From contig OX442314.1 of assembly GCA_949358305.1 (NCBI GenBank), positions 37,607,211-37,671,210 on the forward strand: DNA of 64,000 nt, written 5' to 3'. A program made the position numbers and the translations under genes. This document shows positions 1-63,515 of this stretch, piece by piece. The notes beneath the pieces are model-generated. The model was not told the DNA's origin. It saw only the letters and a list, made by a program, of their open reading frames with translations, and ran no database searches. Origin of the DNA: Strigamia acuminata (Eukaryota > Arthropoda > Chilopoda > Geophilomorpha > Linotaeniidae). The first letter of the stretch is position 1; every line of letters starts with the position of its first letter.

Positions 1-2
1 CA

Positions 3-13515: not shown

Positions 13516-14277
13516 ATATATTTCAGCAGAGGTGAAATGAAATTACCATCAATTCTCAAAAGTAGAAGAAGTATTAAAAGAGACACTAGCACCATTCTTA
13601 CATTCAAAATGCTAAAAGTATGCACGCAAATAATTAGAAACGAATTGAAATTTATCAATCACTATGAATTTAGATTATTCGATTGAACTTGCAATCGCAA
13701 CCATGCCTCAGCCATGATGAATACAAAAGATGCCAGGTTGATTGTTACAACAAAAAGATTTATGATAACATCCAGTGCAAGTGAGTTGTAAAAATAAATG
13801 AAAAAGACTTGCTGGTTTCTCTGCACACTTGCAAATGCTAAGTAGTTACCATCTGATGCAATGTAGTTCATAAATTTATTTTACCATACTTTCAGGTTAC
13901 CATTTCTTAACAACATAAACAAGAATGAATGTACCAGCGCTAAAGATGCCTTAAGAACATTGGCATTTTTCTTGAACAGTTCCTTAAAAGTTGATCTAAG
14001 CAGAGATTGTGGGTGTCACCAACCTTGTGAAGAACCAGTGTTCGAAACCTTTGTTTACTTTCAACATCCTGAACTACGATTATTGAATGGTCTTTTTATA
14101 ATTCCAATGAATAATATAATTGAAGAGATTACACAAATATTATCCTATAATGGAGTTGCACTGTGCTGCGATATTGGAAATTGTTTTGCACTAATGCTTG
14201 GTTTTTCCATTTTTGCAATTCCTGAACTCTTGCACAAGTTGTTTTTTCAGTTACTAAAATTAAAGAAAAAATTCTAA
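13516..14277 (+). CDS. DEG/ENaC array copy 0: last three exons (second domain)
   Basis: 3' end of a sodium-channel-type gene whose upstream exons lie outside the window. Exons: 13516-13617, 13674-13780, 13896-14277, with introns of 56 and 115 bp and GT-AG borders. The junction phases agree, giving an open frame to TAA. The first exon has the ectodomain strand with GEMKLPS. The second has the finger/thumb Cys pattern (QSQPC, CQVDCYNKKIYDNIQC). The third has the conserved CGCHQPCEE motif, then the pore helix with the GFS selectivity-filter motif (GNCFALMLGFS) and a short basic cytoplasmic tail ending LKKKF. It is equivalent to copy 1 exons at 35529-36292, with the same exon lengths (102, 107, 382). 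Protein is plasma-membrane, cation-conducting, trimeric by family. The intact frame suggests it is functional or recently so. Confidence 0.8.
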
Positions 14278-15489: not shown

Positions 15490-15745
15490 TCCAGTGTTCG
15501 ACACCTTTGTTTACTTTCAACATCCAGAAGCAATGGTATTGAATGGTCTTTTTATAATTCCAATGAATTGAAGAGATTGCACAAATATTAACCTACGTAT
15601 AATGGAGTTGAACTGTGTTGTGATATTGGAAATTCTTTTGCACTAATGCTTGGCCTTTCTATTCTGGCAATTCCACAACTCTGGCACAAGTCTTTTTTTT
15701 TAAATGCTAAGATTAAAGAAATAATGCAAATCCCTACATTCACAT
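15490..15745 (+). pseudogene. Relic of the last DEG/ENaC exon
   Basis: Matches the last exon of copies 0 and 1 from TFVYFQHPEAM onward, including the LNGLFIIPMN segment and the GNSFALMLG-like pore region. It has a short deletion, an in-frame stop after IPMN and frameshifts. It shows that an older array unit, or a partial duplication, decayed in the spacer. A stub of the same relic is at about 38133-38175 in the other spacer. Confidence 0.75.
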
Positions 15746-15765
15746 TCCCACAGTGACATTTTAAA

Positions 15766-19094: not shown

Positions 19095-21296
19095 ATAAAG
19101 GAGTTGGAAGGCTTGCGTATTCGTCGTAGTCTTATTCGCCGTTTGGTGCAGCAAGATATGCAAACTGCAATATCTGACAAAGATAGTTTGAAGTTTATCG
19201 ACAATATTATCAACAAGAAAAACAGTTGTACACTTCGAACAGTTTGGTTGGTTGGTCTGATTGTTTGTTTTACCATCTGTTGTTATCAAACAATTGAAAG
19301 ACTTCAATACTACTTTCATGGCCATTTCAAAGTTGAGGTCGAGTATGTTCCAATTGCAGAAAAAGAACCATTCGAATTTCTTGTAGTTGGTCTAGACACC
19401 CAATTGCTGACGAAGTATTGGAAGCAGTTAAAAGAAGAATCTATCAATGGTATGAATAGTTTTACTTGTACCCGTCCTGTACAAGCAATGATCGAAGAGA
19501 AATTGAAAGTAAAGAATTATACAGAATTATGGTTACAATCCAACATTCGAAGCAATTTCCAACAAATTAGAGTTAAACAGGTATGGTATTTGATAGTACA
19601 GTACAATTTTCATCTATGCAGTTCGACAATTGCGAGAAAGTGATGAAATTACTTTAACAAAATTAAATTCCATATCATACTGAATGATTCCGGTACATTT
19701 ATTTTAGGGCAAGACTATTCTGCATGAAACTTCAATTGCAAATGGAATTTATAAAAAGGAAGACACAACAATTACATTCAAATATAAAAATACCATTGTT
19801 GGAAATATGCTGATCATCATGCCTGGTTAAAATAGAAGTTAAAATGTTTTATTTTCCTTTCTAATTAAAAAATTATCAATTTTCATCTAGATGTCAAATT
19901 AACCCACAAAATGATAATACAAGTACTGTTTAAAAAAAACGGAGAGTGCGAGCAGCCATGGATTTTAGTATGAACATAATTTCACGTCATATTGAATTCA
20001 TTACGAACCTGTATTTTAAATTTAAAAACGTTTAATTTATTTTTCAGATTTCTATCAATGACGATCTCATGCCATTTCGATATGCCCAAATAATGAAGAT
20101 GGAAATAGAGCTTAAATTTCAATTTTTTTTTCGAAAAGTAAGTGAAGTTTAGTAAGCTGAGTTTTGATTTAGTTTAGGCTTATTTCTTTCCTGGCAGTAT
20201 CGATTTTTGCCTGCAAGATATCCTTTTTGCGAGTCAAACCAGCAAAAACAAATCCAATGTTATGAAGAATGCGTGACAAAGCAAACTCAATTAGATCATC
20301 CAGATTGCAGGTTAAAATCTATTATTCCATTTAAACCATTGAACATTGTATACTAATAGGTTTTTAAATTAGATTGCCATACATGACAGACAAAAATCTG
20401 CCAGATTGTAGTTTAGAACCGAACAAATCAATTGTGGCTAAGGTGTATGCAGACTCTTACAGTCATGAAATAGCTACATTGGCATCATTAGACTGTGGCT
20501 GCTTGAGACCTTGTCAAAACAATGTTTATCTCCTCATAATACAAACCGATGATCGTTAAGCTAAACTAAAACCATGTTCATGCATAATAAACAAAATTAT
20601 TCCTCTCCCTTAGGTTTTCAAGATATTCAAAATAATGAAGAACTTTTAGGCTTTTATGTTTCTGTTCGCGAAGAGACATTTGTGCGAATGACGGAAGTCT
20701 ACATTTACACAATTTCTGACTTGTTGGTAGATTTTGGTGGCAATTTGGGATTCTCATTGGGATTTTCTCTTCTCTCTATAATTGAGATTGCGCAGCTCTT
20801 CTTACTCCGTTTGTATAAGTATATCAGACCTATCCATCTTGAATCCAGCATCAAGAAAAAAATTACCAATGAACTACATTTGGCCGTTAAGAAAAAAAAT
20901 GCATTTGCTGATTCACAGACTAAGCTATTGTTGCTGCAAGAAAAACCTGTCCTGCTTCGCCTGTTTTACTTAATTCTTATTTCTATTTGTGTCTTACTAG
21001 CATTCTATGTAAGCAAGGAAAAAATATCATTTTATTTAAGCGAACCTACAAGATTTGTAGTAATCATTCAAGAAAATACCACATTATATTTGCCTAATGT
21101 AATTGCATGTATGGATGGACCCTTTATGATTTACTATAGGAGAAAATATGCCAAAGAAATAGGCACAAATGAATGCAAGATACATTTTATCAATTTAATG
21201 GATATGACTATTAAAAAGAAAAAACCATCAATAGAGGATGTGTGGAAACTACAAACCCCTTTAATGGATACAAGTGCAATAAACCTGTCTATGAAA
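19095..21296 (+). CDS. DEG/ENaC array copy 1, exons 1-7 (domain 1 plus start of domain 2)
   Basis: Exons (GT-AG, phases agree): to 19580; 19708-19825; 19891-19967; 20048-20137; 20198-20310; 20373-20554; 20614-21296. Exon 1 encodes a basic cytoplasmic N-terminus and membrane helix 1 (RTVWLVGLIVCFTICCYQTI). Exons 3-6 encode the Cys-rich ectodomain (NGECEQPW, CYEECV, CGCLRPC). Exon 7 encodes the pore helix with LGFSLGFS (GFS filter), a linker of about 40 residues, and then, in the same exon, a new helix (LFYLILISICVLLAFYV) and ectodomain start (YLPNVIACMDG) of a second DEG/ENaC domain. I end exon 7 at AAA|GTAGGT; it continues in phase 0 into exon 8 at 34684. The position equal to the copy 2 ATG is ATA here (19095-19097) and no in-frame ATG lies upstream in this exon, so the start is lost or elsewhere. 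The canonical HG motif before helix 1 is not seen. Confidence 0.8.
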
Positions 21297-21322
21297 GTAG
21301 GTTTTAGGTCAAATATGTATAA

Positions 21323-21584
21323 CCTTGGACATAATAATCGTTGAAGTCTAGCTTGAAGCTCACCTGCAGAATCTAGCCACCAGCTGATAAGTTATGACAT
21401 ATTGACATTTAAATGATGCCACACAATCACCTTCACATCATGGGTTTAGATGATTGTGTGACATCATTTAAATGTCAATTTGTCACAACTTATCAGTGCG
21501 GTTGTTCACCTGGTGGATACAGCCAAAAACGCCCATTTTGCAGGTGAGCTTCAAGCTGGACTGGGACGATTTTTATGTCCAAGG
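21323..21584. mobile_element. Foldback MITE in intron 7 of copy 1
   Basis: Long inverted arms: outer CCTTGGACATAA..., inner AGCTTGAAGCTCACCTGCA and GACATTTAAATGATG. 262 bp in total. Read-through from exon 7 enters it and soon stops. Confidence 0.8.
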
Positions 21585-21955
21585 CTGCACAGCATTATCT
21601 GGTCAAGTGTGTTGGTTGTTTAAATTTTAAAATCACAATCTTATAGTAAAAGATCTTTTCGCCGTGTAGGCCAACTTGCCGCCCTTCCAAAAATACAGTC
21701 ATTTGAATGTTTTGCAAATTTTGATTTTGGGTCCTCTAACTTCTTTTATAAACCCATGGTTCTATAGATTTTTATCTAAGCCGTCCTTTTTTTAAGCTTT
21801 AAAATATACGTTTTGTTTTGTTTCTGTAACACTCATGGTTTAAGAAAATATTTTGTTGTCATATATGTAATTGATACTTTTGAACTTTCTATTGATAAAC
21901 TTTTGACCCCATTGATAGTCAAGAAAACAGTCTTTTTTAAACTTTGAATGTATAA
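21585..21955. other. Intron sequence, nothing recognised
   Basis: AT-rich, no ORF with a motif. Confidence 0.4.
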
Positions 21956-22199
21956 TCTGGCCATGTGTAAGTTTGGCCTAAATCCGAGCCTTTTCTCTGG
22001 TGTAGTGATACAAGAAAATAGATCCAAACACCGGAGTTACTGGTATCCATTTTGTTTCAGACTTAACAATCAATAATAAATTTCAAAATTGTTTTGGTTT
22101 CTGGAAGAAGCAAGCAATAAACTCTGAACTATTTTCCCTGGTGGCAGCACAGAGTGAGTCATGAGGCTCGGATTTAGGCCAAACTTACACATGGCCAGA
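21956..22199. mobile_element. MITE with 35-bp terminal inverted repeats
   Basis: Starts TCTGGCCATGTGTAAGTTTG and ends with its exact reverse complement, with matching repeats through GGCCTAAATCCGAGCC. Interior about 170 bp, non-coding. Flanks are TA-rich. Confidence 0.82.
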
Positions 22200-22223
22200 G
22201 TATATATAGTAGTAACACTACTA

Positions 22224-22381
22224 GGTGCATTCAAAAACTCTAAAACGCCTCTAAAACTCGTTTAGTGTTTGTACGTGACGTCATTCCCATTGAATAACAT
22301 GGGAATGTTATTCAATGGGAATGACGTCACGTACAAACACGAAACGTGTTTTGCATACGTTTTAGACTTTTTGAATGCACC
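22224..22381. mobile_element. 158-bp palindromic MITE
   Basis: Ends GGTGCATTCAAAAA...TTTTTGAATGCACC, flanked by TA on each side. The inner half is a near-perfect palindrome (GTTTGTACGTGACGTCATTC and complement). Confidence 0.85.
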
Positions 22382-22663
22382 TAGTGGTGACTCTGTAATC
22401 AGTTTTAATCATAACATAATTAAAGACTCCAGTACACGGAACCGGAAGCAGAATTTAGAAATGTCAATGATTTGAGAAAAACATGCAACTCTCAAATTTA
22501 CTTAACCTCACGCATTTGTTCACTATTTTAGCTTTTGATTAACTGATTTCAGTAATAGGAAGTTTGACTAGTTTTTGGCCAAGTATGTTAATTACTTGCG
22601 CTAGAATGTCATGTCACAAATGATTGAACAGATACAAGTTTATATAAATTTGTCCCTCAAGAT
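22382..22663. other. Intron sequence, nothing recognised
   Basis: AT-rich, no supported feature. Confidence 0.4.
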
Positions 22664-22819
22664 GAATGTGTGGGGGGTAAATTAAACGCCCCCCAAAAAG
22701 ACCGGGATTCCCCCCAAATAAAACTAAATCGGCCCCTTCTTTTTCAACCCCCCAAAAAAAACTAATTTGCCCCCCTTTATGTAGGAACCTCCCCCCCAAA
22801 TTTTAATTTGTCAAAACAG

Positions 22820-23086
22820 ATTACAGAGGCTTATAACTGGAAACGATCAATGCCAGAAATTAAAATCCGGACAGAAGAATACACTAAACGTTACTTCGTT
22901 GTTCCTACTGCTAAAAAGTCACTGCGGGAATGTGACATCGACAAGTACATACGACAGGTTGACCTCAAAAACTGGCGCCACTTCGATACCTACATACAGT
23001 CGAAGAATAGTTTATGGCTTGTGACCATTGAAAACAGCAAATGGGATGAAGGGACTTGCACATGTCCCACTTTTTTTAAGACTTAC
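22820..23086 (+). pseudogene. MULE transposase fragment, SWIM finger 5' half
   Basis: The open frame reads into LWLVTIENSKWDEGTCTCPTFF, then KTY. This has the first half (CxC) of the SWIM zinc finger common at the end of MULE transposases. It is cut after KTY at 23086 by the LTR of element B. The part upstream that would hold the DDE nuclease is absent because the element's terminal repeat begins just before it. So this is a decayed, internally deleted derivative and cannot make a transposase. Confidence 0.75.
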
Positions 23087-23709
23087 TGTGAGTGTTCGGA
23101 CGGACGCCACGTGGTCGGGGGAGAGCCACGGAGGCGCTGGACGCAACACACACGATAAAACAAACCACGAAATACACGGAGACACAATATAGTTTTAGTT
23201 ATGGCTTTATTGGATGTCTAGGGGTATGATTGTAGTGTCCCATAGTGTATTTCCCAAGGCGGCGGTTCCTTCGAACCGTCCCTAATCAGACCGCGTGGCA
23301 CGGCGGCCATCGGCCGCCATGACACACGAGGTCGGTAATCGGTTTTGGGCCACGCCGCCGAAGTTACGGTTAACGTCCGGCGGACGTGGCGCAACTGGAC
23401 GCTCAGGTCCCGGCGGGCGATATCATCGCCACGCCGATAGTTTGGGTTATCTCAATAGCCAGTTTCGGAGGCGGTCGCAACACGACCGTTCGCCTTGCTG
23501 GTTGATCAACAACTCTCTTGTCCCTACGGGGACCAACCACTTCCGGAAGGGCGACTTCCGGGGCCCGATCCTGCTTGACCAAAGGCCCGCAGCTCCACCT
23601 GGTTGCGGGGGACCGCAACAGGCTGCGCGAGATACGAGAGGCGCTGGAGCTGCGCCAAGTGCATTGCCGTTGCAGTGCAGCGACCCGTGCGCAGGGGCAG
23701 CTGGTCACA
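23087..23709 (-). repeat. 3' LTR of Gypsy element B (623 bp)
   Basis: On + TGTGAGTGTTCGG...CTGGTCACA. Appears identical to 33252-33874 (offset exactly 10165). A polypurine tract on its inner side makes this the 3' LTR of a minus-strand element. ORFs inside it are fortuitous. Confidence 0.92.
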
Positions 23710-23723
23710 TTTCCCCCCCCTGG
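23710..23723 (-). other. Polypurine tract of element B
   Basis: On the minus strand CCAGGGGGGGGAAA directly before the LTR. A near-identical tract (CCAGGGGGGGGAAG) recurs just upstream of gag at 31160-31172. Confidence 0.8.
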
Positions 23724-24199
23724 AAAAAGGTAAGTACGAGGGGGTACAACGCAGTCACTGAAGTGGTTGTTGAAAGTTAACACATCGCATTACTTTTCTT
23801 TTTTCAGATTATCAGATGACCATATTTCGGACGAGCCATCAGCTAGAACGAAGATCACCGGTAGGAATGCACTTGGGAAAATCAACACTACAAAGGAACA
23901 CATACACACTTACCCCCAGGATGGAAACTTGTACAATTTAAACACTATTGAAAAATAAAAATGTAAAATAACACTTGTAATTTAAAAATATATATGAATA
24001 AAAAACACTTTTTGAACTTTAAAATCTAACATTTGTAGTTATTGAATCCATTTAACATTTAAAAGGTAAGTATGCTAATTTTAACACTTTGGAATAATAA
24101 TAAAAAAACTTGTTTTGACAATAAAAAAAAATTATTTCTGGCACTATAAAAGTCTTAATAGGCTTGGCCAAAATCTCCTTTAAAACGACGGCGAAAACT
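23724..24199 (-). other. 3' untranslated region of element B
   Basis: AT-rich, no conserved ORF. On the + strand it has a donor-like GGTAAGTA (23729) and an acceptor-like TTTTCTTTTTTCAG (23807). The short open stretch after that matches nothing I recognise. Confidence 0.45.
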
Positions 24200-25474
24200 T
24201 CACTGCAGCGATTTCCCCGGAGTGGGTGGCGTATCGTCGTTTTTTGGCTCTTCTTCAGTTTTGTCGTCGACGAATTCTTCTGCTAGCTTCTTGCGTGACT
24301 TCTTATTCGACTTCTTTTTCACGGCGGTAGCTTTGGGCTCGGGAACGACTGGCGGTGGTGGTGGCGGCGTGTGCGACTCCTCGTTCGATGCGCCGTCAAT
24401 TTGCATCGCGGTCTCGATCGTTGCTTCGGCGGTGACTACATTGTTGCCGCAAACTGGTGGAGGATCCGCGAATCCCTGGAACACGACGTTCGTCGGGCGT
24501 TCTCCAACCATCGGCGGCATAATGACAGCCGGCGTCGCTGCTGTATTGGCACCAAACATCGTTTGTGCCGTTTGCGGTAGTTGGCAGGCCGCTGGAAAAG
24601 CGATTGCGGCCGCCGTGGCTTTGGTCGGGATCAGGTTCACAATACCTTGGATTGGTTGAGGGCCGTACTGTCCCGCCCAAGCTGTTCGTAGCTCATCGGG
24701 AGTTTTTTCCGTTTGAGCCGGGATTTTTTTAACGAGTGCGCGTGGCGCATTCGATGTGATTGTGGCCGATGGCGCAGTCAATTGCTGATGAGCCGCTTTC
24801 TCGGCGTCTCTTTTTGCCATTCGGTCCTTATGGTCCGCGTGTTTTTTCGCTCTGTACCGAATTTTTGCTTCGGTATTCACGCTTCGTTCACTCAACGTGG
24901 GATTTTCGATCGCCACGAGCCGTCGCATTTCCAGCAATTTCTCCGAAATGTTTGGACGGGCGGTCGGTGGTTGGTGAGGAGTTGGGGCGACGATACTTTG
25001 TACGGTCGCTTTTGTCTCCTCGGCAGCCTTCTTTTTAAGCACAAATGGCTTATGTGGCGGACGAAGAACCTGCTGCGACGTCGTCGCTGCGGTTTTCTTC
25101 GTCGAAATATTAGTAGAGGCAGTCGGCGGCGGTTGAGAGCGTACGCTCTTCGTTGCCGTTTTCTGTCTTTTCTTTGGGGGTTCTGTCGGTGCGGCATTCG
25201 CCACACGCGCTTGTTCCCTGTCTGCGATTTCCTTCTCGCGTTCTGCGCGCGATCGGACGCGCATCCAGTTAATATGTCGGTGGTGCAGCGGAATCGGCTG
25301 ACCGGGCAGCGTCATGAACATGACAAACCATTCCTCGAGTGGTTGATCCGTCAGCACGATTTCGTCTCCGCCGCAGTTCATGCACGGGATTCGCGACAGA
25401 TTCCACAGCGTGATGTAGCCGAAGCCGTTACAGATTGGGCACTGAACCCATTCGTTGTTTCGGTGATTTTCCAT
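24200..25474 (-). CDS. Element B ORF3, zinc-ribbon accessory protein
   Basis: 424 residues from a true ATG at 25474, starting 221 bp after pol. The first 40 residues carry two CxxC pairs (CPICNGFGYITLWN..., CMNCGG), a zinc-ribbon or treble-clef-like module. A conserved-looking Trp-rich segment follows (EEWFVMFMTLPGQPIPLHHR). Then come a charged helix (RSRAEREKEIADREQARVA), a long Lys/Pro/Ala-rich disordered middle, a polyproline run (TPPPPPPPVVPEP), a Lys-rich patch and an acidic tail (DDKTEEEPKNDD). There is no signal peptide or membrane helix, so it is not env. Element C carries a relative in the same place (52189-53397). Paired CxxC and basic patches suggest nucleic acid binding; function unknown. 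The pol-ORF3 gap has a CCAAT motif (about 25653) and could hold a promoter. Confidence 0.75.
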   Translation of the reverse strand: MENHRNNEWVQCPICNGFGYITLWNLSRIPCMNCGGDEIVLTDQPLEEWFVMFMTLPGQPIPLHHRHINWMRVRSRAEREKEIADREQARVANAAPTEPPKKRQKTATKSVRSQPPPTASTNISTKKTAATTSQQVLRPPHKPFVLKKKAAEETKATVQSIVAPTPHQPPTARPNISEKLLEMRRLVAIENPTLSERSVNTEAKIRYRAKKHADHKDRMAKRDAEKAAHQQLTAPSATITSNAPRALVKKIPAQTEKTPDELRTAWAGQYGPQPIQGIVNLIPTKATAAAIAFPAACQLPQTAQTMFGANTAATPAVIMPPMVGERPTNVVFQGFADPPPVCGNNVVTAEATIETAMQIDGASNEESHTPPPPPPVVPEPKATAVKKKSNKKSRKKLAEEFVDDKTEEEPKNDDTPPTPGKSLQ

Positions 25475-25695
25475 CGTTTTTCCAATCTTTTCGTTTCGAT
25501 TTTCCAGAGAAGTTCCACACGACTGGTCAGTGGCGATCGCAGCGAATAAGTGATTTGGACAAAGAATGGTGGTGGCTAAGTATAGAACCGGAAGACGTTT
25601 CGCGAACGTTTAATTGGCGTATGGACCGCAGATGTTTTGTAAACAGTCTGTGATTGGTCCAAATGGGTCTCCCGATTTGAAGTGTCACCTAGCGG

Positions 25696-28600
25696 TCAAT
25701 CCCGATATCGGATCGGTAAAACGTGATTTCTCGAAGGTCTATTTGAGTCCGAATTTGGTTTTGGTCGAGCCGTCGTGGGTTTTTGTGAATCCACTTGTGG
25801 CAACAGCAAGGGTTTTATTCTTTTTGGTTTCCCAAAAGGTTTTACTGGTGTTGGCAACTTAGTTGCGATACCAGATTCCGTTGGTCGCACTGGAGTTGGC
25901 AATATTGTTGCTGTTCCAGTGTCCACAGGTTGGTTTTCAAGAGCTTCTTCATCTTCCTTATCTAAAATGGGCCATTCAGCCTTTTCTTCTGAGGGGATGA
26001 ATCTCCTGAGTTTTACAATGTTGTGTGTACCCCTCGCTTGCAAAGTTATTGGTTTCGCAAGGGCATACGCATTGTTGTTAAAGACTTTAGCTATTACATA
26101 AGGTCCTTCAAAGCGATCCTCAAGGGACGCAGCATATCGATTAGCAGCATTGGACAATGGGTGGGTCTTTAGTAGAACCAAGTCTCCAATTTCGAACTTA
26201 TCGTCGCTGCGGTGTTGATCGTAGTAAGTTTTCTGTTTTGCTTGGGCCAGACTCTTATTTTTAAGAGCTGCAGCAATCAGAGTACGGTGTCTAGCGACTA
26301 GCATTCTGACAGCGTCGTAGGGCCTATTTGGGTCGAATGGGGTGTCATAAGACACATCTCGATTATCCCAAAATGGTCGTAATTCCCTGCCATACGTCAG
26401 CATTGCTGGTGTAAAACCGGTAGACACATTTGGGGCAGAGTGCAAAGCAAAATTTATCTGGTCAATGCATCTGTCCCAGTGATCGTGCTCAAATGTAAAA
26501 ATTCGAAGCATAATCTTGATATTCCTGTTTACGCGTTCAGTCAGGTTAGTCTGGGGATGGTAAGGCGTTGCTTTAATTGGTACAACCCCTGCATCGTCAC
26601 AGAGAGTCTGAAACACGTCAGAAATGAATTGGGGGCCATTATCGCTCAACATAAAACGAGGGCACCCATGACAGCTGAAAAATCGTCTTAAAATTGGTGC
26701 AATTGCAGTCATTTTAGCGGATCTCAGCGGTGTAGCTTCCATCCAGCCGGTGGCATAATCCACCACAACTAGAATGAAGCGATTTCTGTTCGAGGTTCTA
26801 GGTAATGGACCTATTAGATCGATTCCTATCTTCTCAAAACGACCAATTTTTGGAGAAGTTGGGACCATCAATCCCTTTGGTTTTCTCTGAATCGGTTTGC
26901 AGCGTTGGCAGCGATTGCAGCTTGCTACATGAAGTTTTACTTCTTTTTGCATGCCAGGCCAGAAATAAACTCTTTTCAATCGCTCTAGAGTTACTTCAAC
27001 TCCTCCGTGACCAGCCATCGGATGGTCGTGAATTAGTTGAAGTGCTGCGAGTTGCAGAGATGGTGGAATAAAGATTTTAAATCCAATTCCCAAATCCTCT
27101 TCCTCCACAAAGAAATCAGTTTTAAAAGGTGCATAAATAATAAGCATTCCTTTTCTAGTGAGTGTGCAGTCGTACTGCCTTTCTTCCAAGAACTTAGGAA
27201 GTTCTGGTCGAGGTTGTCCATCATCCAATTCCAACCATTCGATTAGTTTTGAAAGATGTTTATCTGCACGCTGCTGTAATATAATGTTCTCGAAAGACAT
27301 CGGGTAATCGGTCTCATTGGTGAGATATGCCAGAGCAACAGGCTCTATAATCTCAGTTAGAGTTGCTTTCCCTTCTAATGGATTGCCATTATCAAGAGAG
27401 ACTCTGGATAAGGCATCTGCGACTTGATTGTCGGTGCCTTTCCGGTACTTGATGGTGAAATTTTCATTCTGCAATTTCATTGCCCACCTAGCCAGTCTTC
27501 CAGCTGGATTTTCCATTGTCATGAGAAATCTCAGAGCATGATGGTCAGTCTCAACTTGGTATTCAGAATATTCAATGTATGGCTTGAACTTATCAACCGC
27601 CCAAACCACAGCTAAACATTCCAAATCGGTGGTGCTGTAGTTGTTTTCCGCGCCTTGCAGAGTTCTGCTGGCGTACGCAACTGGTCTTAAAGCACCATGG
27701 TCATCAATTTGCATGAGGACAGCTCCGAGCCCGCCGCCACTAGCATCTGTATGGATGGTGAAGTTGCGTGCGAAATCAGGCAGAGGCAGCATAATTCCTT
27801 TTGCAAGTTGATTTTTCAAATATTCGAAGGCAACATTGCATTCTTCAGACCATTCCCATTTTGTATCTTTCTTTAGAAGGGCAAAGAACGGTTTTTGAGT
27901 AATACTCAATTTTGGAATCAGAGCAGCATAGAAACCCACCATTCCAATAAAACGCTGAAGTTGTTTTATACTGGAAGGGGTTGGATAATTTAAAATTGCT
28001 TCCACTTTGTCGTTGTTTGGGCTGTAACTCCCATTTGACATCGTGAAACCAAGAAAACTTAGTTCTTCTGGGCAAATAAATGACTTTGACGGACTCGCTG
28101 TCAATTTATTTTTGTCTAATTTTGACAATATGTCATCTAAATGCTGAAGGTGTTCTTCAAATGAGTCGCTAAAGATGATAATATCATCGAGGTAAGCGAG
28201 TGCCCACTTGTGTTGTGCAGTTCCAAGAACTTGATCCATCATTCTCTGAAACGCACTGGGTGCATTGCACAGTCCGAAAGGCATACGAGTAAACTGGTAT
28301 GTTCCATCAGAAGTAGAAAAAGCAGTTTTCTTCTTGTCACTTGGTTTAAGTTTTATTTGGTAATAACCTTTAGTTAAATCCAAAGTAGAAAAGAACTTTT
28401 TTCCACCTAAACAGGCCAAAATCATAGAAATTGAGGGCATCTGATAGACGTCCTTAATTGTGATTTTATTTAGCCAGCGAAAGTCAATACAGAGGCGGTA
28501 CCCTCCGTCTTTCTTTGCAACAATCACGGGGGGATTTTTATAACTCCCCTCGCAAGGTTCGGCCCAACCATCTCTCAGCAATTCGGCAACCAATTCGCGA

Positions 28601-29463
28601 TAAATCTCAGCTTTCTTGGGATTCATTGGTCGGTCTTTGCATCGAAATGAAGGCGCATCTCCAGTCGGAATTGGATGTTCCAACGTGGGGTGGCAGCCAG
28701 CTTTGTCACTAAACACATGTCTGTATTTTTCTACAAGAGTTAAGATTTGAGATCTCTGCCTTGGTGACAAATTGCTTTTTGCTAACAGTCTCTGGCTCAA
28801 ATCAGCCGTGGAGACAGAAGGTGACTTTGATTCTGCAACCAAAGCATCCCATCGATCCATTATTGCATTTCCAAGTTCTTCAGGCGATGGTGGGTCGTCG
28901 AAGGGAAATGTGTCATGTGGAAAATCAAGAAAGAAATATTCTCGATCTGTTAGATTGAGAACAATCCTATTTTCGATAATCCAAGAGCAACCTAATAATA
29001 TAAATTTGGAAGCTGATGGAAGAACAGTAAATGTCACAGGGATTTCGCCACCCCGCCACTTGAGTGACAGCGTGATTGTCCCGATTGGACGTGTTGGCCT
29101 ATCGCCAGTGTATACAACTCGATTTTCTAAAAATGGAGTCATAAAGTGCAAGAGGTTTAGCTTTTTAAGCATTCCCCCGCTGATGTACCTGTGGGTTGCC
29201 CCAGAATCCATCAGAGCGGTGACCTTTAAACCGTTTAGTGTTGCCTTGATGTAAGGCAGGGGAGTAATACTCTTTCCTGTCTTCAATGCAACGTTTACAT
29301 GGTCGATTTCAGGTTCTGTGGAAAAAACCACGCGAGGATCTGGCTCTGTGGATGAAATGTCATCAAATAGAGCATCCTCCATGTCCTCTTCCATTGGAAT
29401 CAACACTATAGTAAGAGCGCAGTCGTCAGTTACTCGGGGGTTTCTGTCGACTGCGACTCCTCG
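25696..29463 (-). CDS. pol: Gypsy element B pol
   Basis: About 1255 residues if entered by -1 frameshift at 29463; intact. Protease ALMDSGATHRYISG; reverse transcriptase with YLDD (tyrosine codon at 28194-28192) and the usual FTRMPFGLCNAPSAFQ; RNase H with HTDASGGGLGAVL and TDLECLAVVWAV; integrase zinc finger (HDHPMAGHGG to CNRCQRCK), core GIDLIGPLP, LSDNGPQF and NLTERVNR with 34 residues between the last two acidic residues; GPYVIAKVFNNNAY motif. The C-terminal tail repeats a T-LPTPV-P unit. No chromodomain. The first codon of the pol frame downstream of gag is not an ATG, which supports expression as a gag-pol fusion. Confidence 0.93.
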   Translation of the reverse strand, partial: RGVAVDRNPRVTDDCALTIVLIPMEEDMEDALFDDISSTEPDPRVVFSTEPEIDHVNVALKTGKSITPLPYIKATLNGLKVTALMDSGATHRYISGGMLKKLNLLHFMTPFLENRVVYTGDRPTRPIGTITLSLKWRGGEIPVTFTVLPSASKFILLGCSWIIENRIVLNLTDREYFFLDFPHDTFPFDDPPSPEELGNAIMDRWDALVAESKSPSVSTADLSQRLLAKSNLSPRQRSQILTLVEKYRHVFSDKAGCHPTLEHPIPTGDAPSFRCKDRPMNPKKAEIYRELVAELLRDGWAEPCEGSYKNPPVIVAKKDGGYRLCIDFRWLNKITIKDVYQMPSISMILACLGGKKFFSTLDLTKGYYQIKLKPSDKKKTAFSTSDGTYQFTRMPFGLCNAPSAFQRMMDQVLGTAQHKWALAYLDDIIIFSDSFEEHLQHLDDILSKLDKNKLTASPSKSFICPEELSFLGFTMSNGSYSPNNDKVEAILNYPTPSSIKQLQRFIGMVGFYAALIPKLSITQKPFFALLKKDTKWEWSEECNVAFEYLKNQLAKGIMLPLPDFARNFTIHTDASGGGLGAVLMQIDDHGALRPVAYASRTLQGAENNYSTTDLECLAVVWAVDKFKPYIEYSEYQVETDHHALRFLMTMENPAGRLARWAMKLQNENFTIKYRKGTDNQVADALSRVSLDNGNPLEGKATLTEIIEPVALAYLTNETDYPMSFENIILQQRADKHLSKLIEWLELDDGQPRPELPKFLEERQYDCTLTRKGMLIIYAPFKTDFFVEEEDLGIGFKIFIPPSLQLAALQLIHDHPMAGHGGVEVTLERLKRVYFWPGMQKEVKLHVASCNRCQRCKPIQRKPKGLMVPTSPKIGRFEKIGIDLIGPLPRTSNRNRFILVVVDYATGWMEATPLRSAKMTAIAPILRRFFSCHGCPRFMLSDNGPQFISDVFQTLCDDAGVVPIKATPYHPQTNLTERVNRNIKIMLRIFTFEHDHWDRCIDQINFALHSAPNVSTGFTPAMLTYGRELRPFWDNRDVSYDTPFDPNRPYDAVRMLVARHRTLIAAALKNKSLAQAKQKTYYDQHRSDDKFEIGDLVLLKTHPLSNAANRYAASLEDRFEGPYVIAKVFNNNAYALAKPITLQARGTHNIVKLRRFIPSEEKAEWPILDKEDEEALENQPVDTGTATILPTPVRPTESGIATKLPTPVKPFGKPKRIKPLLLPQVDSQKPTTARPKPNSDSNRPSRNHVLPIRYRD

Positions 29464-29469
29464 TTTCCC
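29418..29469 (-). promoter_or_regulatory. -1 ribosomal frameshift signal, element B gag/pol
   Basis: Minus strand: slippery heptamer G GGA AAC at 29469-29463 in the gag frame (codons GGA AAC). A 7-nt spacer follows, then a perfect 8-bp GC-rich stem: 29455-29448 (CGCAGTCG) with 29425-29418 (CGACTGCG). Gag stops at 29430-29432 inside the loop. The pol frame is open from 29475. Confidence 0.85.
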
Positions 29470-31031
29470 GACATTTCAGGCCAGCCACCAAATTCATTGG
29501 CTGCAAGCATAGCCTGCATCATGCTGTGTTGGGCAGCGGCGATTGTTTCCATTGCTGCTTTAGCGGCTTCCACTTTAAGGGGGCAATCCCTTTCAAAGTG
29601 TGCGCCACCGCAGCCCCAGCAACCGCCAACTCTTGGTTTGGTCGCATAGTCTTTGAGCCTATTGCTCGGGACTAGCGCCTTCTCGTTGCCTTCTGCGGCC
29701 TTTGTTGCTGCTATCGCAGCATTTTTAGGCGCAGGGAACAGTGTTCTATTGTTTGGATTTCTCAATCCAAACGGAACAAATTTCGGTTTATCTCCACCCG
29801 CAGCATTTGGTATTGTTACCATTTGCTGGTTGGATTTTTGAATTGGCGTAACAGTTTCTGTTTTTGCCGCCTCAATGATTGCTGCATTTGTCACAGTTTC
29901 CTGATTTATGATCGCGGCCTCCGTAGCAATGCAGGCTCTCCTGAGCGACGCCCAAGTGTTCTCTAAATTAATGGCATTTGCGACCATGTTCTTGGCCGCT
30001 GGGCGCAGAATTGCCAGCACTTTTTGAATTTGCTGGCTCTCGTGCACAGGAATAGTCAATTGAGCGTATAACTTCTCGAGTCTTATCACCACTTGGGTGG
30101 CAGACTCATGAGACAGTTGCTGTGTTTTAGCAATTTCTGCTAAAAGCAGCGCATCGCTCGGACGAAAATGGGTGATAAATTCATGTTCGAATTCCTCCCA
30201 ATTCGTTTTGGCATGAGAAGAGAACCATGTGGCCGCATCTCCTCGGAAAAACTTAAACAAATGCTCAGCAAGCACTTGGTTCAGATAGGGCAAAGCAAAG
30301 CGTAGAGAACGTTTTAAATCAATAAGGAAAGACTTAGCTTTCGTTTTGTCCCCTGCAAACGCTTCAATTCCAATGGATTTGACTCGTTTACTTAGCTCTA
30401 CTTCATCCATTGGCCTGGGAGCAGGCATAGCCTGGTCAGTTTTGTGAAGAAACTTTTCTCCCCAAGCCAGAAAAAGAGGATTTCCAGTCGTAGGCGTTGA
30501 GCCTGTGCTGGATCCAGAGTTTGGTGTTGTCACGGTGGGAGAAATCGTGTTTGAGATTGCAGATTGTGCTCTCAAATTCGATTGTCCAGCCGCCACCACG
30601 CTGTCAACGATAGCTTTTTGACTAGCTATCATCTTCAACAAGCTTTCATTCGATAATTTCGTAGAGTCTAACTCCTGCAAAGCATGAGTTAACCGGTCGC
30701 TAATATCACCGAATTCCGTGCGCGTTTGCGTTAATTGACGCATAGTGCTATCCGATTTGTCTTGGAGTTCCACCAAGTGATCGGCTACTTTCAGAAGCGT
30801 GTCTTCCCACACTTCGTAGGTTGTCATATCATCGATAACTAGATTAAAGACGTTGCAAGTCGTTTCAAGCATCGCTTGATCCAACAATTTAACTTTAGGA
30901 CTTGACATATCGTCGTTTGAAGAAGCAATCGAATTGTTATCCGAGTCGTTCAAATCTGAATCCGTTGCGGGTGTGAAAGAATTAGGTGCAGGAGAGTCCC
31001 ACGTGGTCTTACCAGTTCTGGTCGCTGGCAT
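29430..31031 (-). CDS. gag: Gypsy element B gag
   Basis: Capsid/nucleocapsid polyprotein, 533 residues from the ATG at 31031-31029 (MPATRTGKTTWDSP). The frame is also open upstream to 31124, but that part reads like leader and I prefer the internal ATG. An N-terminal Ser/Asp-rich region is followed by a helical region with coiled-coil character (VADHLVELQDKSDSTMRQL), then a capsid-like domain (LFKFFRGDAATWFSSHAK, then WEEFEHEFITHF). One CCHC zinc knuckle (CWGCGGAHFERDC) precedes the C-terminus. It overlaps pol by the frameshift region. No damage is seen. Confidence 0.88.
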   Translation of the reverse strand: MPATRTGKTTWDSPAPNSFTPATDSDLNDSDNNSIASSNDDMSSPKVKLLDQAMLETTCNVFNLVIDDMTTYEVWEDTLLKVADHLVELQDKSDSTMRQLTQTRTEFGDISDRLTHALQELDSTKLSNESLLKMIASQKAIVDSVVAAGQSNLRAQSAISNTISPTVTTPNSGSSTGSTPTTGNPLFLAWGEKFLHKTDQAMPAPRPMDEVELSKRVKSIGIEAFAGDKTKAKSFLIDLKRSLRFALPYLNQVLAEHLFKFFRGDAATWFSSHAKTNWEEFEHEFITHFRPSDALLLAEIAKTQQLSHESATQVVIRLEKLYAQLTIPVHESQQIQKVLAILRPAAKNMVANAINLENTWASLRRACIATEAAIINQETVTNAAIIEAAKTETVTPIQKSNQQMVTIPNAAGGDKPKFVPFGLRNPNNRTLFPAPKNAAIAATKAAEGNEKALVPSNRLKDYATKPRVGGCWGCGGAHFERDCPLKVEAAKAAMETIAAAQHSMMQAMLAANEFGGWPEMSGNEESQSTETPE

Positions 31032-33229
31032 TGACACAATGTGACCAAAAGCAGGACCGCAGCTTGCAAGGTGAACAAGTGGAATTAAGTCACGACCAAT
31101 GAGGAGACAGGAGATTAGGCTCAAGTAGCCATTCTTGGGAGAGGGATTAGTGATGTCACTTCCCCCCCCTGGTTTCCCATTGGTAGAAAAATTAAATTAA
31201 TTCATGGAATTGATTTCCCAGAGTTCCAAGAAAATGTCAAAATTTAAAATTCCAATCATTCTCGAAAATTCCGAGATTTCCACATGTTTTTCTATTGTTT
31301 TCAGGTCGCCATCTTGATTTTTTGACAAAAAATAAAACTTTGACCAATATAAATGCCGAATTTTCTCCATTTCTGAAGAGAAACAACATTTTTTTGAAAG
31401 CAAAATAGAAATTTGTTTGGAACTAGAAGTTCTGAACCAGATCAAAATGGTCTGATTCCACAAAAACATGACTTTTGTGCTTTCCTAAAAAAGCACGAAA
31501 TCATGTCTGTAGAACTTCGAAATTTTCAAACCAGTTAATTTTATCATTGTTGGCAACAAATAACAAAATCAAACCGCGCTAGCGCGCAGACAAACCGATT
31601 CTTGATGCCTCGCAAGAAGAAACAGAGGAAGAAAGATAAGAAAATAAAAATAAAAAATTACAAAATACTGGGTGTTTTTTAATCTAAAAGACACTCAAAA
31701 AGTTCCAATTTTTAGCAGAAGGTTTTTGCAGATATTTACACTACGGGGATATTGTTGCAATCTCTTCTTCTGCCCCAAGAGACCAACAAACGCGCCCGCT
31801 CACCCCTTTCGGAGACTCATTCCAGTCTGCACGAGGCTGCCTTTCGACAGAAACGTGCCTACACTGAGATGTCTGTTCATCCCAATGAAATGGTGTTTTT
31901 TGTGGAACAGTCAGTTGCACTTAAAGTAAGAAGGAAATGCATCTTCTGTCCCTAGTCGCCTTGGGTCCCACCCTTCAGCCGCCATTGTGAAGCCATATCG
32001 CCCTCCATTTGGCGCTGTATACAACCCGGCATTTGAGGTGATTACTACCGCTGTCAGGTGTGGAGTCCCAAGAAAACCATGAAAATCATAGATAGGGAAG
32101 TTTAGAGAAAAAGTAAAAAATGAAAAAGATGTAAAAACAACTAATTTCCAAATTACAGAGATTGCTCCAGACTGTGGTTCGAGCACAGTCCTTTAACAAA
32201 CTGCAGTAGCCCAGAAATCAAGCAAGAGTGAATAAAATTCAGAAACAAAAGTTACAGGCTAGATTCCCAATCTTTTTTCAAAGTTGGTAGCTACCTGAAC
32301 GCACAGATATCGTTCCTACGCCCTAACGAACTCTCTGTGCCATTTGAGCACTTCACCATCGGTATCCCCGTACCTCTGGCAGCTCTCCCTGCTGTCCGTG
32401 TCCCAATTTCAGCAACTCTTGGGTTAAATACGTTAACTTGCAGTTGCCTACCAACCAGTACACGGGACAGGGTAGGATTATGACCGATGTGAACCCGGAT
32501 GAGCGCCTTGAGCAGCCACAACGCAACCCATAAATTATGAGTCGCAACAAAAATCAAGGCAGTCTTCCCATGTGTGCGGACACTTCGCTGCTACTCGGGT
32601 CCAACTACACGCCAACTCACCGCACGTGACTGTTCCCGCGCCAGCGACCACTAAGCTAGCAACCTGCATCCAAGCGACTAAACGTCCTACAAGAAATTTG
32701 GTGTCACTCAAAGCTCAGTTCAACATCGCCTCCTCGCCCGGCCCATAATGGAACCAGTGATTGCAGCGTGGCACCTGGAATATGACCGCTTCTCCCCCGT
32801 GGGATTTGGTTTGCTGGTGGCCACCAGCGCGCCTCCTCCACGAATCGAGTTTGAATACGCTGCAGACTGTCCCATTACTTTTACTTGGGCTGCGCACCAA
32901 GAAATAGAAATAATAAAGAAGGTTTGGAATTATATTCCCCTCCCAACCACTCAGTTTTTTAGGCTAAGCTAGAAAGGAATAGAAGACCGTTGGAAAGTGT
33001 GGCTAGTGTAAGTCCCGGCTTGCCAGTACCCAGGCAAGCTGGACATGCAAAGCCACCAATTTTTGTCTGATCAGGGTCCAATGGTCAGCGATTAGCGGCC
33101 GTTTCGCCTGCTGACCCCCTGTCACAATCATGACCAAGGAAATTTCCCCCTCTAGTTGAAAGAAAAAATTCATTTAATATTGTGCTTCGCACAATCAGTA
33201 AATTAGAATAGTATTCGCAAGAGAATTCA
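31032..33229 (-). other. Unusually long region between primer site and gag of element B
   Basis: About 2.2 kb, far longer than a normal leader. It contains a second polypurine-like tract CCAGGGGGGGGAAG (minus strand, 31172-31159) just before gag. On the + strand it has exon-like open stretches I cannot identify: about 31745-31926 ending at a donor AAA|GTAAGA, 32286-32490 after acceptor TTTTTTCAAAG, and 32749-32970. It may be a captured or inserted sequence inside the element. Confidence 0.4.
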
Positions 33230-33247
33230 AAATCCTGGACGGGCCCA
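33230..33247 (-). other. Probable primer binding site of element B (tRNA-Pro-like)
   Basis: Minus strand TGGGCCCGTCCAGGATTT, starting 4 nt inside the 5' LTR. It resembles the tRNA-Pro site TGGGGGCTCGTCCGGGAT with a two-base gap and a few substitutions. Confidence 0.45.
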
Positions 33248-33251
33248 CAAT

Positions 33252-33874
33252 TGTGAGTGTTCGGACGGACGCCACGTGGTCGGGGGAGAGCCACGGAGGC
33301 GCTGGACGCAACACACACGATAAAACAAACCACGAAATACACGGAGACACAATATAGTTTTAGTTATGGCTTTATTGGATGTCTAGGGGTATGATTGTAG
33401 TGTCCCATAGTGTATTTCCCAAGGCGGCGGTTCCTTCGAACCGTCCCTAATCAGACCGCGTGGCACGGCGGCCATCGGCCGCCATGACACACGAGGTCGG
33501 TAATCGGTTTTGGGCCACGCCGCCGAAGTTACGGTTAACGTCCGGCGGACGTGGCGCAACTGGACGCTCAGGTCCCGGCGGGCGATATCATCGCCACGCC
33601 GATAGTTTGGGTTATCTCAATAGCCAGTTTCGGAGGCGGTCGCAACACGACCGTTCGCCTTGCTGGTTGATCAACAACTCTCTTGTCCCTACGGGGACCA
33701 ACCACTTCCGGAAGGGCGACTTCCGGGGCCCGATCCTGCTTGACCAAAGGCCCGCAGCTCCACCTGGTTGCGGGGGACCGCAACAGGCTGCGCGAGATAC
33801 GAGAGGCGCTGGAGCTGCGCCAAGTGCATTGCCGTTGCAGTGCAGCGACCCGTGCGCAGGGGCAGCTGGTCACA
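33252..33874 (-). repeat. 5' LTR of Gypsy element B (623 bp)
   Basis: Direct repeat of 23087-23709, no differences seen by eye, so the insertion is recent. The outer flanks (CTTAC at 23082-23086, CTCTT at 33875-33879) do not form a target duplication. Confidence 0.92.
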
Positions 33875-34683: not shown

Positions 34684-36292
34684 CTCTACGGATTAAAAAG
34701 TAATGTGTCTTGGCACCAGACACCTATGCACACCGGAACGTGCTTTGAATCTGATATGAGCTTAGGTAGTGTAATTTTATATTTTATTGCATATTTAAAA
34801 TGAAATTACAATATTTTTTTCCAAGTTCCACTAAAGTATACAGGGACTGCTTCGCTTATACTTTTTAGTTTTATACCTAACACCGATAAAATCTGCAAGC
34901 CGGACGAATACGAAGTAATGTATCAATTTGTTAATAAAACTCACACACCCCTGGACAAAAAAAATTCCATTCAGTTTAGCTGCTCGAAGTTATCTACCAG
35001 GTGGCATGAAAACCCATTGAGATTTAATGACATCGGCTTTGACTCGTTCTCTTGTCTTACTGACAACAGTATGAAAAAGATAAACCAGACAAACGATGAT
35101 GTCATTAAATCTCAATAATTCTTTATGCCTCCATGTGGAGAAATTTGAGAGCTGTACTGCATTAAAGTATTTGACGTACAACTACGTCTTTCCCCGCATT
35201 AGAGGATAAGACAGACAAACAGTGACATAGAGAACGAAATTTGAAGTATAAAACGGAAATTGAGAATAATCGCATAAAACTCAAACAGTCGCACACAAAA
35301 GCCCCATTCCGTAAAAAAAATGTGGTATAATATGCACTACAAACCACACTCACAACTTACCCAACCTCATCTAAATAATCAGATATTCTTCCAGATGTAG
35401 TTCTACGTTGTGGCATACTGTGCCCCATTCAATTTTTTTTTCACAGGTGTACATAAAGTACACAATTCTTTGTTCTGTACTTCAAATAGTAACAGAAATT
35501 GTTGTTAATAATCAATTTCTGCTTTTAGATATATTTCAACAAAGGTGAAATTAAAATACCATCAATTCTCAAAAGTAGAAGAAGTATTAAAAGAAACACT
35601 TACACCATTCTTACATTCAAAATGCTAAAAGTGTGCACGCAAATAATTACATACAAATTAAAATTTATCAATCATTATAAATTTAGACCATTCGATTGAA
35701 TTTGCAATCACAACCATGCCTCAGCCATGATGATTACAACAGGTGCCAGGATGATTGTTACAACAAAAAGATTTATGATAACATCCAGTGCAAGTAAGTT
35801 GTAAAAATAAATGAAAAAGACTTGCTGGTTTCTCTGCACACTTGCAAATGTTACATAGTTACACATCTGTTGCAATATAGTTCATTAATTTCTTTTTACC
35901 ATACTTTTAGGTTACCATTTCTTAACAACATAGACAAAAATGAATGCACCAGCGCTAAAGATGCCTTAACATCATTGGCATTTTTCTTGAACAGTTCCTT
36001 AAAAGTTGATCTAAGCAAAGATTGTGGGTGTCACCAACCTTGTGAAGAATCAGTGTTCGACACCTTTGTTTACTTTCAACATCCTGATGCAATGGTATTC
36101 AGTATTCTTCTTATAGTTCCAATGAATAATGTAATTGAAGAGATTACACAAATATTATCCTATAATGGAGTTGCACTGTGCTGCGATATTGGAAATTGTT
36201 TTGCACTAATGCTAGGATTTTCCATTCTTGCAATTCCTGAACTCTTGCACAAGTTGTTTTTTCAGTTACTAAAATTAAAGAAAAAATTCTAA
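34684..36292 (+). CDS. DEG/ENaC array copy 1, exons 8-12 (rest of domain 2)
   Basis: Continuation of the gene begun at 19095, after an intron of about 13.4 kb. Exons: 34684-34765, 34826-34914, 35529-35630, 35687-35793, 35911-36292, all GT-AG with matching phases. Exon 8 has the signature ectodomain turn WHQTPMHTGTCFESD (family pattern T..G.C..F). Exons 10-12 match copy 0 closely: GEIKIPS, then CQDDCYNKKIYDNIQC, CGCHQPCEE, and the pore helix with GNCFALMLGFS. It ends at TAA 36290-36292. With exons 1-7 the product is about 837 residues with four membrane helices. The exon 9 donor (GAA|GTAATG) is the least certain border; reading on would enter a foldback element. Intact frame throughout. Confidence 0.75.
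34965..35175. mobile_element. Foldback element in intron 9 of copy 1
   Basis: Inverted arms of about 75 bp, with an exact core TTGAGATTTAATGACATC / complement (about 35018-35035 and 35099-35116) and outer arms about 70% alike. The 67-codon ORF at 34918 runs into it. Confidence 0.65.
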
Positions 36293-42751: not shown

Positions 42752-42805
42752 ACGTTACCGACGGAAAAATAAAGATAACCACAAAAAGAAACCCCAAAAA
42801 TGAAA

Positions 42806-61309: not shown

Positions 61310-63515
61310 ATGAAAGAGTTGGAAGGTTTGCGTATTCGTCGTAGTCTTATTCGCCGTTTGGTGCAGCAAGAAATGCAAACTGCAATATCTGACAACGATA
61401 GTTTGAAGTTTATCGACAATATTTTCAACAAGAAAAACAGTCGTACATTTCGAACAGTTTGGTTGGTTGGTCTGATTGTTTGTTTTACCGTCTGTTGTTA
61501 TCAAACAATTGAAAGAATTCAATACTACTTTCAAGGCAATTCTAAAGTTGAGGTCGAGTATGTTCCAATTGCAGAAAAGGAACCATTTGAATTTCTTGTA
61601 GGTGGTATAGACACCCAATTGATGACTGAGTATTGGAAGCAGTTAAAAGAAAAAACTGACGATATTGCTGCGGAAGGACTTGCTTGTGCCCGTCCTGTAC
61701 AAGGATTGATCCGTGAGAAACTGGAAATAAAAAATTATACAGAATTGTGGTCACGATCCAACATTCAAAGCAATTTTCAACAAATTAGAGTTAAACAGGT
61801 ATGGTATTTAAGAGTGGTACAATTTTCATCCAAGCAGTTCAACAATTGCGTGAAAGTGATGAATGACTTTAAAAAAAATTAAATTGCATCATATCATACT
61901 GAATGACTCCAGTACATTTATTTTAGGGCAAGACTATACTGCATGAAACTTCAATTGCAAATGGAATGTATAAAAAGGAAGACACAACAATTACATTCAA
62001 ATATAAAAATGGCGTAATTGGAAATATGCTGATCATCATACCTGGTTAAAATAGAAGTTAAAATGTTTTATTTTACTTTCTAATTAAAAATTTATCAATT
62101 TTCATCTAGATGTAAAATTAACCCAAAAAATGATAATACAAGTACTGTTTAAAAAAAACGGAACATGCGAGCAGCCATGGAGTGCTGTATGAATATAATT
62201 TCACGTCATATTGAATTAATTATAAATCTGTATTTTGAATTTAAAAACCTTTCATTAACTTTTCAGATGGCAATCAATGATGGTCTCATGCCATTTCAAT
62301 ACACTCAACTATCGCAGATGGGAATAGAGCTTCAAATTCAATTTATTTTTCGAAAAGTAAGTGAAGTTTAGTAAGTTTAGTTTTGGTTTAATTTAGGTTT
62401 ATTTCTTTCCTGGCAGTATCGATTTTTGTCTACGAAATATCCGTTTTGCGAGCCGGACCAGAAAAAACAAATCCAATGTTATGATGAATGTGTGGCAAAA
62501 CAAACTCAATTAGATCATCCAGAATGCAGGTAAAAATCTATTACATCATTTAAACCATTGAACATTATAAACTAATAGGTTTTTAAATTAGATTGCCATA
62601 CATGACAGACAAAAATCTGCCAGATTGTAGTTTTGAACTGAACAAATCAATTGTGGCTAAGGTGTATGAAAACTCTTACAGTCATGAAATAGCTACATTG
62701 GCATCATCAGACTGTGGCTGCTTGAGACCTTGTCAATACAATGTTTATCTCCTCATATTACAAACCGATGATCGTTAAGCTAAACTAAAACCATGTTCAT
62801 GCATAATAAACAAAATCATTCCTCTCCCTTAGGTTTTCTGGATATTCAAAATGACAAAGGACTTTTAGGCTTTTATGTTTCTGTTCGAGAGGAGACATTT
62901 GTGCAAATGACGGAAGTCTACATTTACTCAATTCCTGACTTGTTGGTAGATTTTGGCGGCAATTTGGGATTCTCATTGGGATTTTCACTTCTTTCTATAA
63001 TTGAGATTGCACATCTCTTTTTACTACTTTTGTATAAGTATATCAGACCTATCCATCTTGAATCCAGCATCAAAAAAAAAATTACCAATGAACTACAATT
63101 GGCAGTTCAGAAAAAAAAGACATTTGCAGATTCACAGACGAAGCTATTGTTGCTGCGAGAAAAACCTGTCCTGCCTCGCCTGTTTTATTTAATTCTTATT
63201 TCTATTTGTGTGTTACTAGCATTCTACGTGAGCAAGGAAAGAATATCATTTTATTTAAGCGAACCTACAAGATTTGTAGTAATCATTCAAGAAAATAACA
63301 CATTATATTTGCCTAATGTAATTGCATGTATGGATGGACCCAAGATGATTTACTACAGGAGAAAATATGCCAAAGAAATAGGGACGAATGAATGCAAGAT
63401 CCATTTTATCAATTTAATGAATATGACTATTAAAAAGAAAAAACCATCAATAGAGGATGTGTGGAAACTACAAACCCTTATAATGGATAAATATACAATA
63501 GATGCGTTTAAGAAG
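61310..63515 (+). CDS. DEG/ENaC array copy 2, exons 1-7 (gene continues past window)
   Basis: Starts at ATG 61310-61312, 16 bp after the BEL LTR edge. Exons: 61310-61798, 61927-62044, 62110-62186, 62267-62356, 62417-62529, 62592-62773, 62833-63515, all GT-AG. They total 584 codons in an unbroken frame; exons 2-7 have the same lengths as copy 1. Domain 1: helix 1 (RTVWLVGLIVCFTVCCYQTI), Cys-rich ectodomain (NGTCEQPW, CYDECV, CGCLRPC), pore helix LGFSLGFS. Exon 7 then runs through a basic linker (SIKKKITNELQLAVQKKK) into a second helix 1 (LFYLILISICVLLAFYV) and ectodomain start (YLPNVIACMDG). The exon 7 donor is AAG|GTAGGT; reading past it stops at 63542. Later exons should lie to the right. 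Cation channel subunit by family; the insertion has probably removed its native promoter. Confidence 0.85.

Follow-up and report, generated by a model that had tools for sequence, protein, structure and literature searches.

A predicted two-domain DEG/ENaC subunit, joined within a single exon, and its large gene family in the centipede Strigamia acuminata

Solved DEG/ENaC channels such as PDPNaC1 of the centipede Scolopendra subspinipes mutilans (PDB 9JF7) are built as trimers from single-domain subunits, according to the available part of the structural report (PMC12714832). In the same part of that report, PDPNaC1 is described as a homotrimer with two helices per subunit, in which Asp372 and Gly375 are pore constrictions and a Gly-Ala-Ser tract in helix 2 is the G-x-S filter. 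Its authors consider Gly375 analogous to Gly436 of chicken ASIC1, and sensory roles are given for the centipede relatives (PMC12714832). The C-terminal half of PDPNaC1 aligns with domain 2 of the gene described here, whereas PDPNaC1 itself is a single domain of 421 aa and its Gly375 is replaced by Asn or Ser in the second domains of this study. The best solved relative by sequence is another centipede channel, the broad-range thermal receptor 1 (BRTNaC1, PDB 8YMR), to which domain 2 aligned over 341 residues (7e-15). BRTNaC1 also differs in being a single domain, in a chain of 431 residues, with a Gly-Gly pore compared to Gly-Asn in domain 2.

DEG/ENaC subunits have been linked artificially in one chain, and such ASIC concatemers formed working trimers in oocytes, as stated in the accessible portion of the paper (PMC10329638). 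Those concatemers were made in the laboratory and hold three subunits, whereas the chain proposed here is natural and holds two. No two-domain DEG/ENaC protein was found in the open-access full-text literature, as judged mostly from titles and the openings of abstracts, in agreement with the original prediction that no natural example had been described. As for family size, 30 DEG/ENaC genes are reported for C. elegans in the part of the source available (PMC10424705). The Strigamia genome paper covers gustatory and ionotropic receptors, and a term search of its main text returned none of 'sodium channel', 'ppk' and 'amiloride' (PMC4244043).

The window analyzed here is a stretch of 64,000 nucleotides of the Strigamia acuminata genome, and its features are collected in Table 1. 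It contains one complete gene, copy B, and parts of two neighboring genes, copies A and C. Exon 7 of copy B, the fused exon, had been placed exactly to the base by the original prediction. Its frame is open from 20616 to 21296. It encodes the helix 2/pore with which one DEG/ENaC domain ends, then a basic linker, and then helix 1 and the start of the ectodomain of a second domain. The exon is flanked by an acceptor (TTAG/G) and a donor (AAA/GTAGGT), and two Pfam PF00858 (ASC) stretches were found in the ORF at 20565-21341 (5.3e-14). The proposal that a single exon joins two domains was borne out by the one frame and the two PF00858 stretches, although the linker, which had been put at about 40 residues, has 47 residues in copy B, or 51 with an alternative cut. 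The copy C exon, named in advance as a twin, is also fused, with a frame open from 62835 to 63515 and a protein 88% identical to that of copy B.

Table 1. Features of the two-domain genes and of the element inserted in copy B (window positions, except those given with G000:C1)
Feature	Position	Strand	Remark
Copy A, whole	G000:C1:37590689-37621484		
Copy A, exons 10-12	13516..14277	+	exons 1-9 upstream of window
Copy B, exon 1	19095..19580	+	cytosolic start and domain 1 helix 1; start codon uncertain (model residue 22 is Met)
Copy B, exon 2	19708..19825	+	ectodomain of domain 1
Copy B, exon 3	19891..19967	+	
Copy B, exon 4	20048..20137	+	
Copy B, exon 5	20198..20310	+	
Copy B, exon 6	20373..20554	+	domain 1 CGCLRPC motif
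Copy B, exon 7 (fused exon)	20614..21296	+	domain 1 end joined to domain 2 start
Domain 1 pore Asp, helix 2 and G-F-S filter	20730..20819	+	
Basic linker	20820..20960	+	47 residues, without Met
Domain 2 helix 1 core	20961..21011	+	
LTR-like element, copy B intron 7	23087..33874	-	two identical 623-base direct repeats (100%), long minus-strand ORFs between
Copy B, exon 8	34684..34765	+	TGTCFESD
Copy B, exon 9	34826..34914	+	
Copy B, exon 10	35529..35630	+	
Copy B, exon 11	35687..35793	+	
Copy B, exon 12	35911..36292	+	CGCHQPC, domain 2 helix 2 (DIGN...LGFS), stop
Copy C, whole	G000:C1 37668520-37673162		partly past window end
Copy C, exons 1-7, with ATG	61310..63515	+	exons 8-12 beyond window at G000:C1 about 37671513-37673162
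Copy C, fused exon	62833..63515	+	

A gene model of copy B (19095-36292) was built from splice signals and reading frame. The model has 12 exons with all junctions in phase and encodes 836 residues followed by a stop, as expected from the predicted product of about 837 residues. The exons from 34684 to 36292, which had been proposed to supply the rest of the second domain, complete that domain in frame. The intron phases are 0,1,0,0,2,1 in domain 1 and 0,1,0,0,2 in domain 2, and all five common positions agree. The ASC profile scored 78.0 bits on the first half and 55.3 bits on the second, where the curated cut-off is 23.6, and the second half covers profile positions 17 to 453. Hydropathy peaks at residues 45-67, 402-422, 460-493 and 800-827 indicate two membrane helices per domain, on either side of a large ectodomain that contains Cys. 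The whole halves contain 14 (first) and 16 (second) Cys residues, and both domains carry LGFS, which conforms to the G-x-S filter. DEG/ENaC proteins have one domain per polypeptide, and the 836-aa model has two. The novelty is the two predicted domains in one chain, and the assignment of each domain to the DEG/ENaC family is unaffected. At the site of the first ATG of copy C, copy B has ATA, so translation of copy B would begin either at model residue Met22 or in an exon outside those seen.

The exon-7 protein was compared with 5.8 billion proteins, and a single relative was found at E <0.001: T1ITA9, an uncharacterized protein of 346 aa from Strigamia maritima. T1ITA9 shares the junction of the domain-1 pore, linker and domain-2 start, is 58% identical over 98% of exon 7, and covers the stretch between the CGC motif of domain 1 and TGTCFESD of exon 8, junction included. 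It differs in that its model is without the domain 1 start and the domain 2 end, contains one Pfam ASC stretch and bears no two-domain name. By eye, about 35 additional residues precede TGTCFESD in T1ITA9, and this insert could be an additional exon or a mis-kept intron. The T1ITA9 model ends before domain 2 does, so that no complete two-domain protein is annotated. A single-domain profile search returned T1ITA9 as the sole match. When the full 836-aa model was compared with proteins of 460-1463 aa (7998 candidates scored), one marginal match was obtained (Anabrus pickpocket 28, E 0.17). An AlphaFold2 prediction for the Strigamia maritima protein and two window exons gave a mean pLDDT of 32 and was left out of the argument.

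After 70 kb had been added on each side of the window, tblastn with the twelve exon peptides showed that A, B and C are three genes in a row, each of which matches all twelve exons in order. The junction of exons 7 and 8 is in phase 0 in copy B, in copy C and in a compact locus elsewhere (L059), where all twelve exons are present. The last exon of L059 stops a few residues early, and this locus may be damaged. In two distant loci inspected by eye (L058 and L060), the last part of a first-domain exon, a fused exon and a terminal, stop-bearing second-domain exon were recognized, and in one of them the first exon of the next gene then follows. The interpretation as a two-domain gene is supported at the sequence level. 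The arrangement recurs in copies A and C and L059, in outline in L058 and L060, and at the Strigamia maritima junction. Upstream of a fused exon, L060 also contains an in-frame tandem repeat on the reverse strand (1434-2054) with the eight-residue unit YYQSNEKI.

The whole assembly (237.5 Mb, 157 contigs) was searched with six fused-exon queries of different subfamilies, each of which gave at least 150 matches. With the six queries merged, the fused exon was found at at least 460 distinct places on 14 contigs, where rows spanning both helices were counted, partial rows were dropped and places no more than 900 bases apart were merged. This count includes three C11 rows that start within helix 2 and carry a stop, as well as some near-identical copies and some places on small contigs, which are possibly assembly duplicates; the true number is probably above 460. 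The fused places listed form clusters, for example of 38 places within 0.6 Mb on C6 and of 32 within 1.0 Mb on C1. We considered but did not adopt a transposon origin for the fused exons: in copies A, B, C and L059 the twelve exons are present with their introns, and the places are tandemly clustered.

Thirty fused loci, including A, B and C, were read (L011-L020 and L038-L057), and in all of them the pore, linker, second helix 1 and ectodomain lie in one open frame. The linker has 34-59 residues (median 45) and is net positive in 30/30. Eight further loci were selected by a long frame at a pore match; six were fused, and in two the motif was not seen. The last exon was compared with most of the fused places, using 147 of its best 150 matches (one decayed fragment and two long open frames were omitted). 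A listed fused exon lay within 3 kb upstream of 60 of the 147 and downstream of none, and within 10 kb the numbers were 102 upstream and 32 downstream. As for three-domain genes, none of the listed second-domain terminal exons continues into another helix 1, and the chains examined end at two domains.

The two halves differ at the gate position, the equivalent of Gly375 in PDPNaC1. Gly was found in all 30 first-domain rows (27 D-x-G-G and 3 D-A-A-G) and in none of the 33 second-domain rows, where the residue is Asn in 28 (including L065, a shortened row counted by eye as DIGN) and Ser in five; the 33 rows represent 32 places, since L034 repeats L023. Gly was also present at this site in BRTNaC1 and PDPNaC1 (2/2) and in 12/12 presumed single-domain genes; for L001-L009, L036 and L037 this label was taken from canonical terminal pores rather than from complete gene models. 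Second-domain rows were labeled by matching exon 12. For three of them (L066, L071 and L075) the 12 kb upstream contain no listed fused exon, so either the listed fused places are incomplete or these rows are of another nature. Inserted elements enlarge the distance between exons 7 and 12 in genes A and B.

In a quick tree of the C-terminal part (77 rows; L068 was excluded, having no intact motif in the frame used), the second-domain rows formed one group with a support of 86, the neighbors of which, including the placement of BRTNaC1 and PDPNaC1, are unsettled with 121 columns. Because L046-L048 and L050 fall outside the main first-domain group, the first domains require two changes in the tree. 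A single old fusion receives moderate support. In ten genes whose halves were paired by position, seven of them close relatives, the identities of the first halves were correlated with those of the second (Mantel r 0.97, p 0.0002).

Over exons 1-7, 161 coding changes separate copies B and C, and no stop was found. In 2000 simulation runs without constraint the mean was 7.2 stops, and zero stops occurred in 0.05% of the runs, so chance is an unlikely explanation. The dN/dS of the fused exon was below 1 in 16/16 paralogue pairs (0.22-0.58; the pairs share members). The linker evolves faster than helix 2 in many of the 16 pairs, and for the linker alone dN/dS reached 1.15 and 2.56 in two of them. 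Between B and C, dN/dS was 0.62 over exons 1-7 and 0.95 in exon 1, with identities of 92% in introns and 91% in coding sequence, and for exon 12 of A and B it was about 1.0. These values suggest genes that are open, fast-changing and modestly constrained, some of them perhaps decaying, which would fit a sensory family without proving it.

Taken together, we consider it probable that this exon marks where the two domains of a genuine DEG/ENaC subunit meet. The subunit would be a member of a very large family, with at least 460 fused exons, and has halves that are unlike at the gate. Exon 7 could instead be shared accidentally by two genes or be a dead fusion, with transcripts ending or starting inside the exon. 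A Met is present in 20/30 linkers, so a separate start of domain 2 is possible there, and intron 7 of copy B is 13.4 kb long. However, 10/30 loci, including A, B and C, have no Met between the helices, and intron 7 retains its phase-0 donor and acceptor in copy C and L059, where it is short (0.8 kb and 0.34 kb, respectively). Since the LTR-like element fills most of intron 7 in copy B, the 13-kb gap that raised the doubt is mostly a recent insertion. Stops were found in just 6, 12, 5, 7, 5 and 1 of the best 150 rows of the six fused-exon searches, and with the fused-exon dN/dS below 1, two genes or a dead fusion are very improbable. A cut in the basic linker after synthesis would yield two ordinary subunits in equal amounts. 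Such cleavage would agree with the net positive charge in every locus read and with the faster change of the linker than of helix 2 in many pairs, but the linker sequence differs between subfamilies, and we regard this processing as improbable.

In an uncut two-domain subunit, the chain would begin in the cytosol and pass through helix 1, ectodomain 1 and helix 2/pore 1 into a basic cytosolic linker of about 35-60 residues; second helix 1, ectodomain 2 and second helix 2/pore 2 would follow before the stop. The linker would lie on the cytosolic side because there are four helices, provided that each domain has the topology of the family. We propose, tentatively, that one chain may occupy two of the three places of a pore, the two being unequal, and that the third may be filled by a single-domain DEG/ENaC subunit. 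The chief rival is a dimer of trimers, in which three two-domain chains would assemble their first domains into one trimer and their second domains into another, so that two pores are linked and no single-domain partner is needed. This assembly would preserve the threefold rule of the solved PDPNaC1. The two pore types are each internally consistent, and a linker of 34-59 residues could place the domains of one chain in different trimers. We regard this assembly as unlikely; no DEG/ENaC member that pairs trimers is known to us. A pore of four places built from two chains would be the simplest closed ring for a two-domain chain, and a tetramer has been argued for ASIC1a at the cell surface in the part of the report available (PMC4529235). 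Such a ring would mean that the family departs from trimers, while the solved centipede relative PDPNaC1 is a trimer in the accessible description (PMC12714832), and we judge it decidedly improbable.

The two-domain gene probably arose by whole-gene tandem duplication of one ancestral gene followed by in-frame fusion, as suggested by the matching intron phases of the halves together with their weak protein similarity (3e-10 over 150 residues). The fused unit probably spread later by tandem duplication, and the halves would have diverged such that domain 1 retained the gate Gly and domain 2 acquired Asn or Ser. The size and divergence of the family and the sensory roles of centipede relatives suggest that its role is probably sensory. 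In insect odorant receptors, many tuning subunits work with a common partner; likewise, many two-domain tuning subunits would share a common single-domain partner. It is possible, though somewhat doubtful, that a myriapod lineage uses many hundreds of natural two-domain concatemers as DEG/ENaC chemoreceptors instead of OR, GR or IR, each working with a shared single-domain partner and having pore halves of which one is normal and the other altered at the gate.

A two-domain chain raises the question of how it fits into a channel normally made of three separate parts. The fusion is the mark of a family, at at least 460 places, and extends beyond a single locus. With these natural two-domain places, one genome offers ready-made channels whose gene determines which two subunits are neighbors and in what order, so that the stoichiometry and asymmetry of the pore are directly testable. 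A receptor system may thereby have been overlooked.

Probable single-domain DEG/ENaC genes were observed 26-33 kb past the window end (G000:C1:37697032-37704263), where there are three pore exons with D-F-G-G-N pores; a matched helix-1 exon lies upstream of two of the three. They are probable genes of the single-domain kind and candidate partner subunits. At G000:C10:4.62-5.01 Mb and G000:C9:11.55-11.97 Mb, pore exons that have short open frames occur in clusters; these are probably also single-domain DEG/ENaC genes, and the single-domain family may have expanded as well.

Besides the element in intron 7, two LTR-like elements lie between copies B and C, at 41957-49621 and 49616-61210, with repeats of 716 bases (100% identical) and about 1715 bases (99.9%), respectively. 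Since the direct repeats are 99.9-100% identical, the three LTR-like elements of the window are probably very recent insertions. A retroelement at 1-8736 lies inside the long intron 9 of copy A. One open frame in it (1250-5434) carries domains of a reverse transcriptase, an RNase H and an integrase, along with a weak match to a protease. A decayed extra fragment of a last exon (15492-15765, DNA 82% identical) is located outside any complete gene. A piece of exon 1 at G000:C1:37695764-37696054, with no matched remainder of a gene nearby, is 90% identical to copy B.
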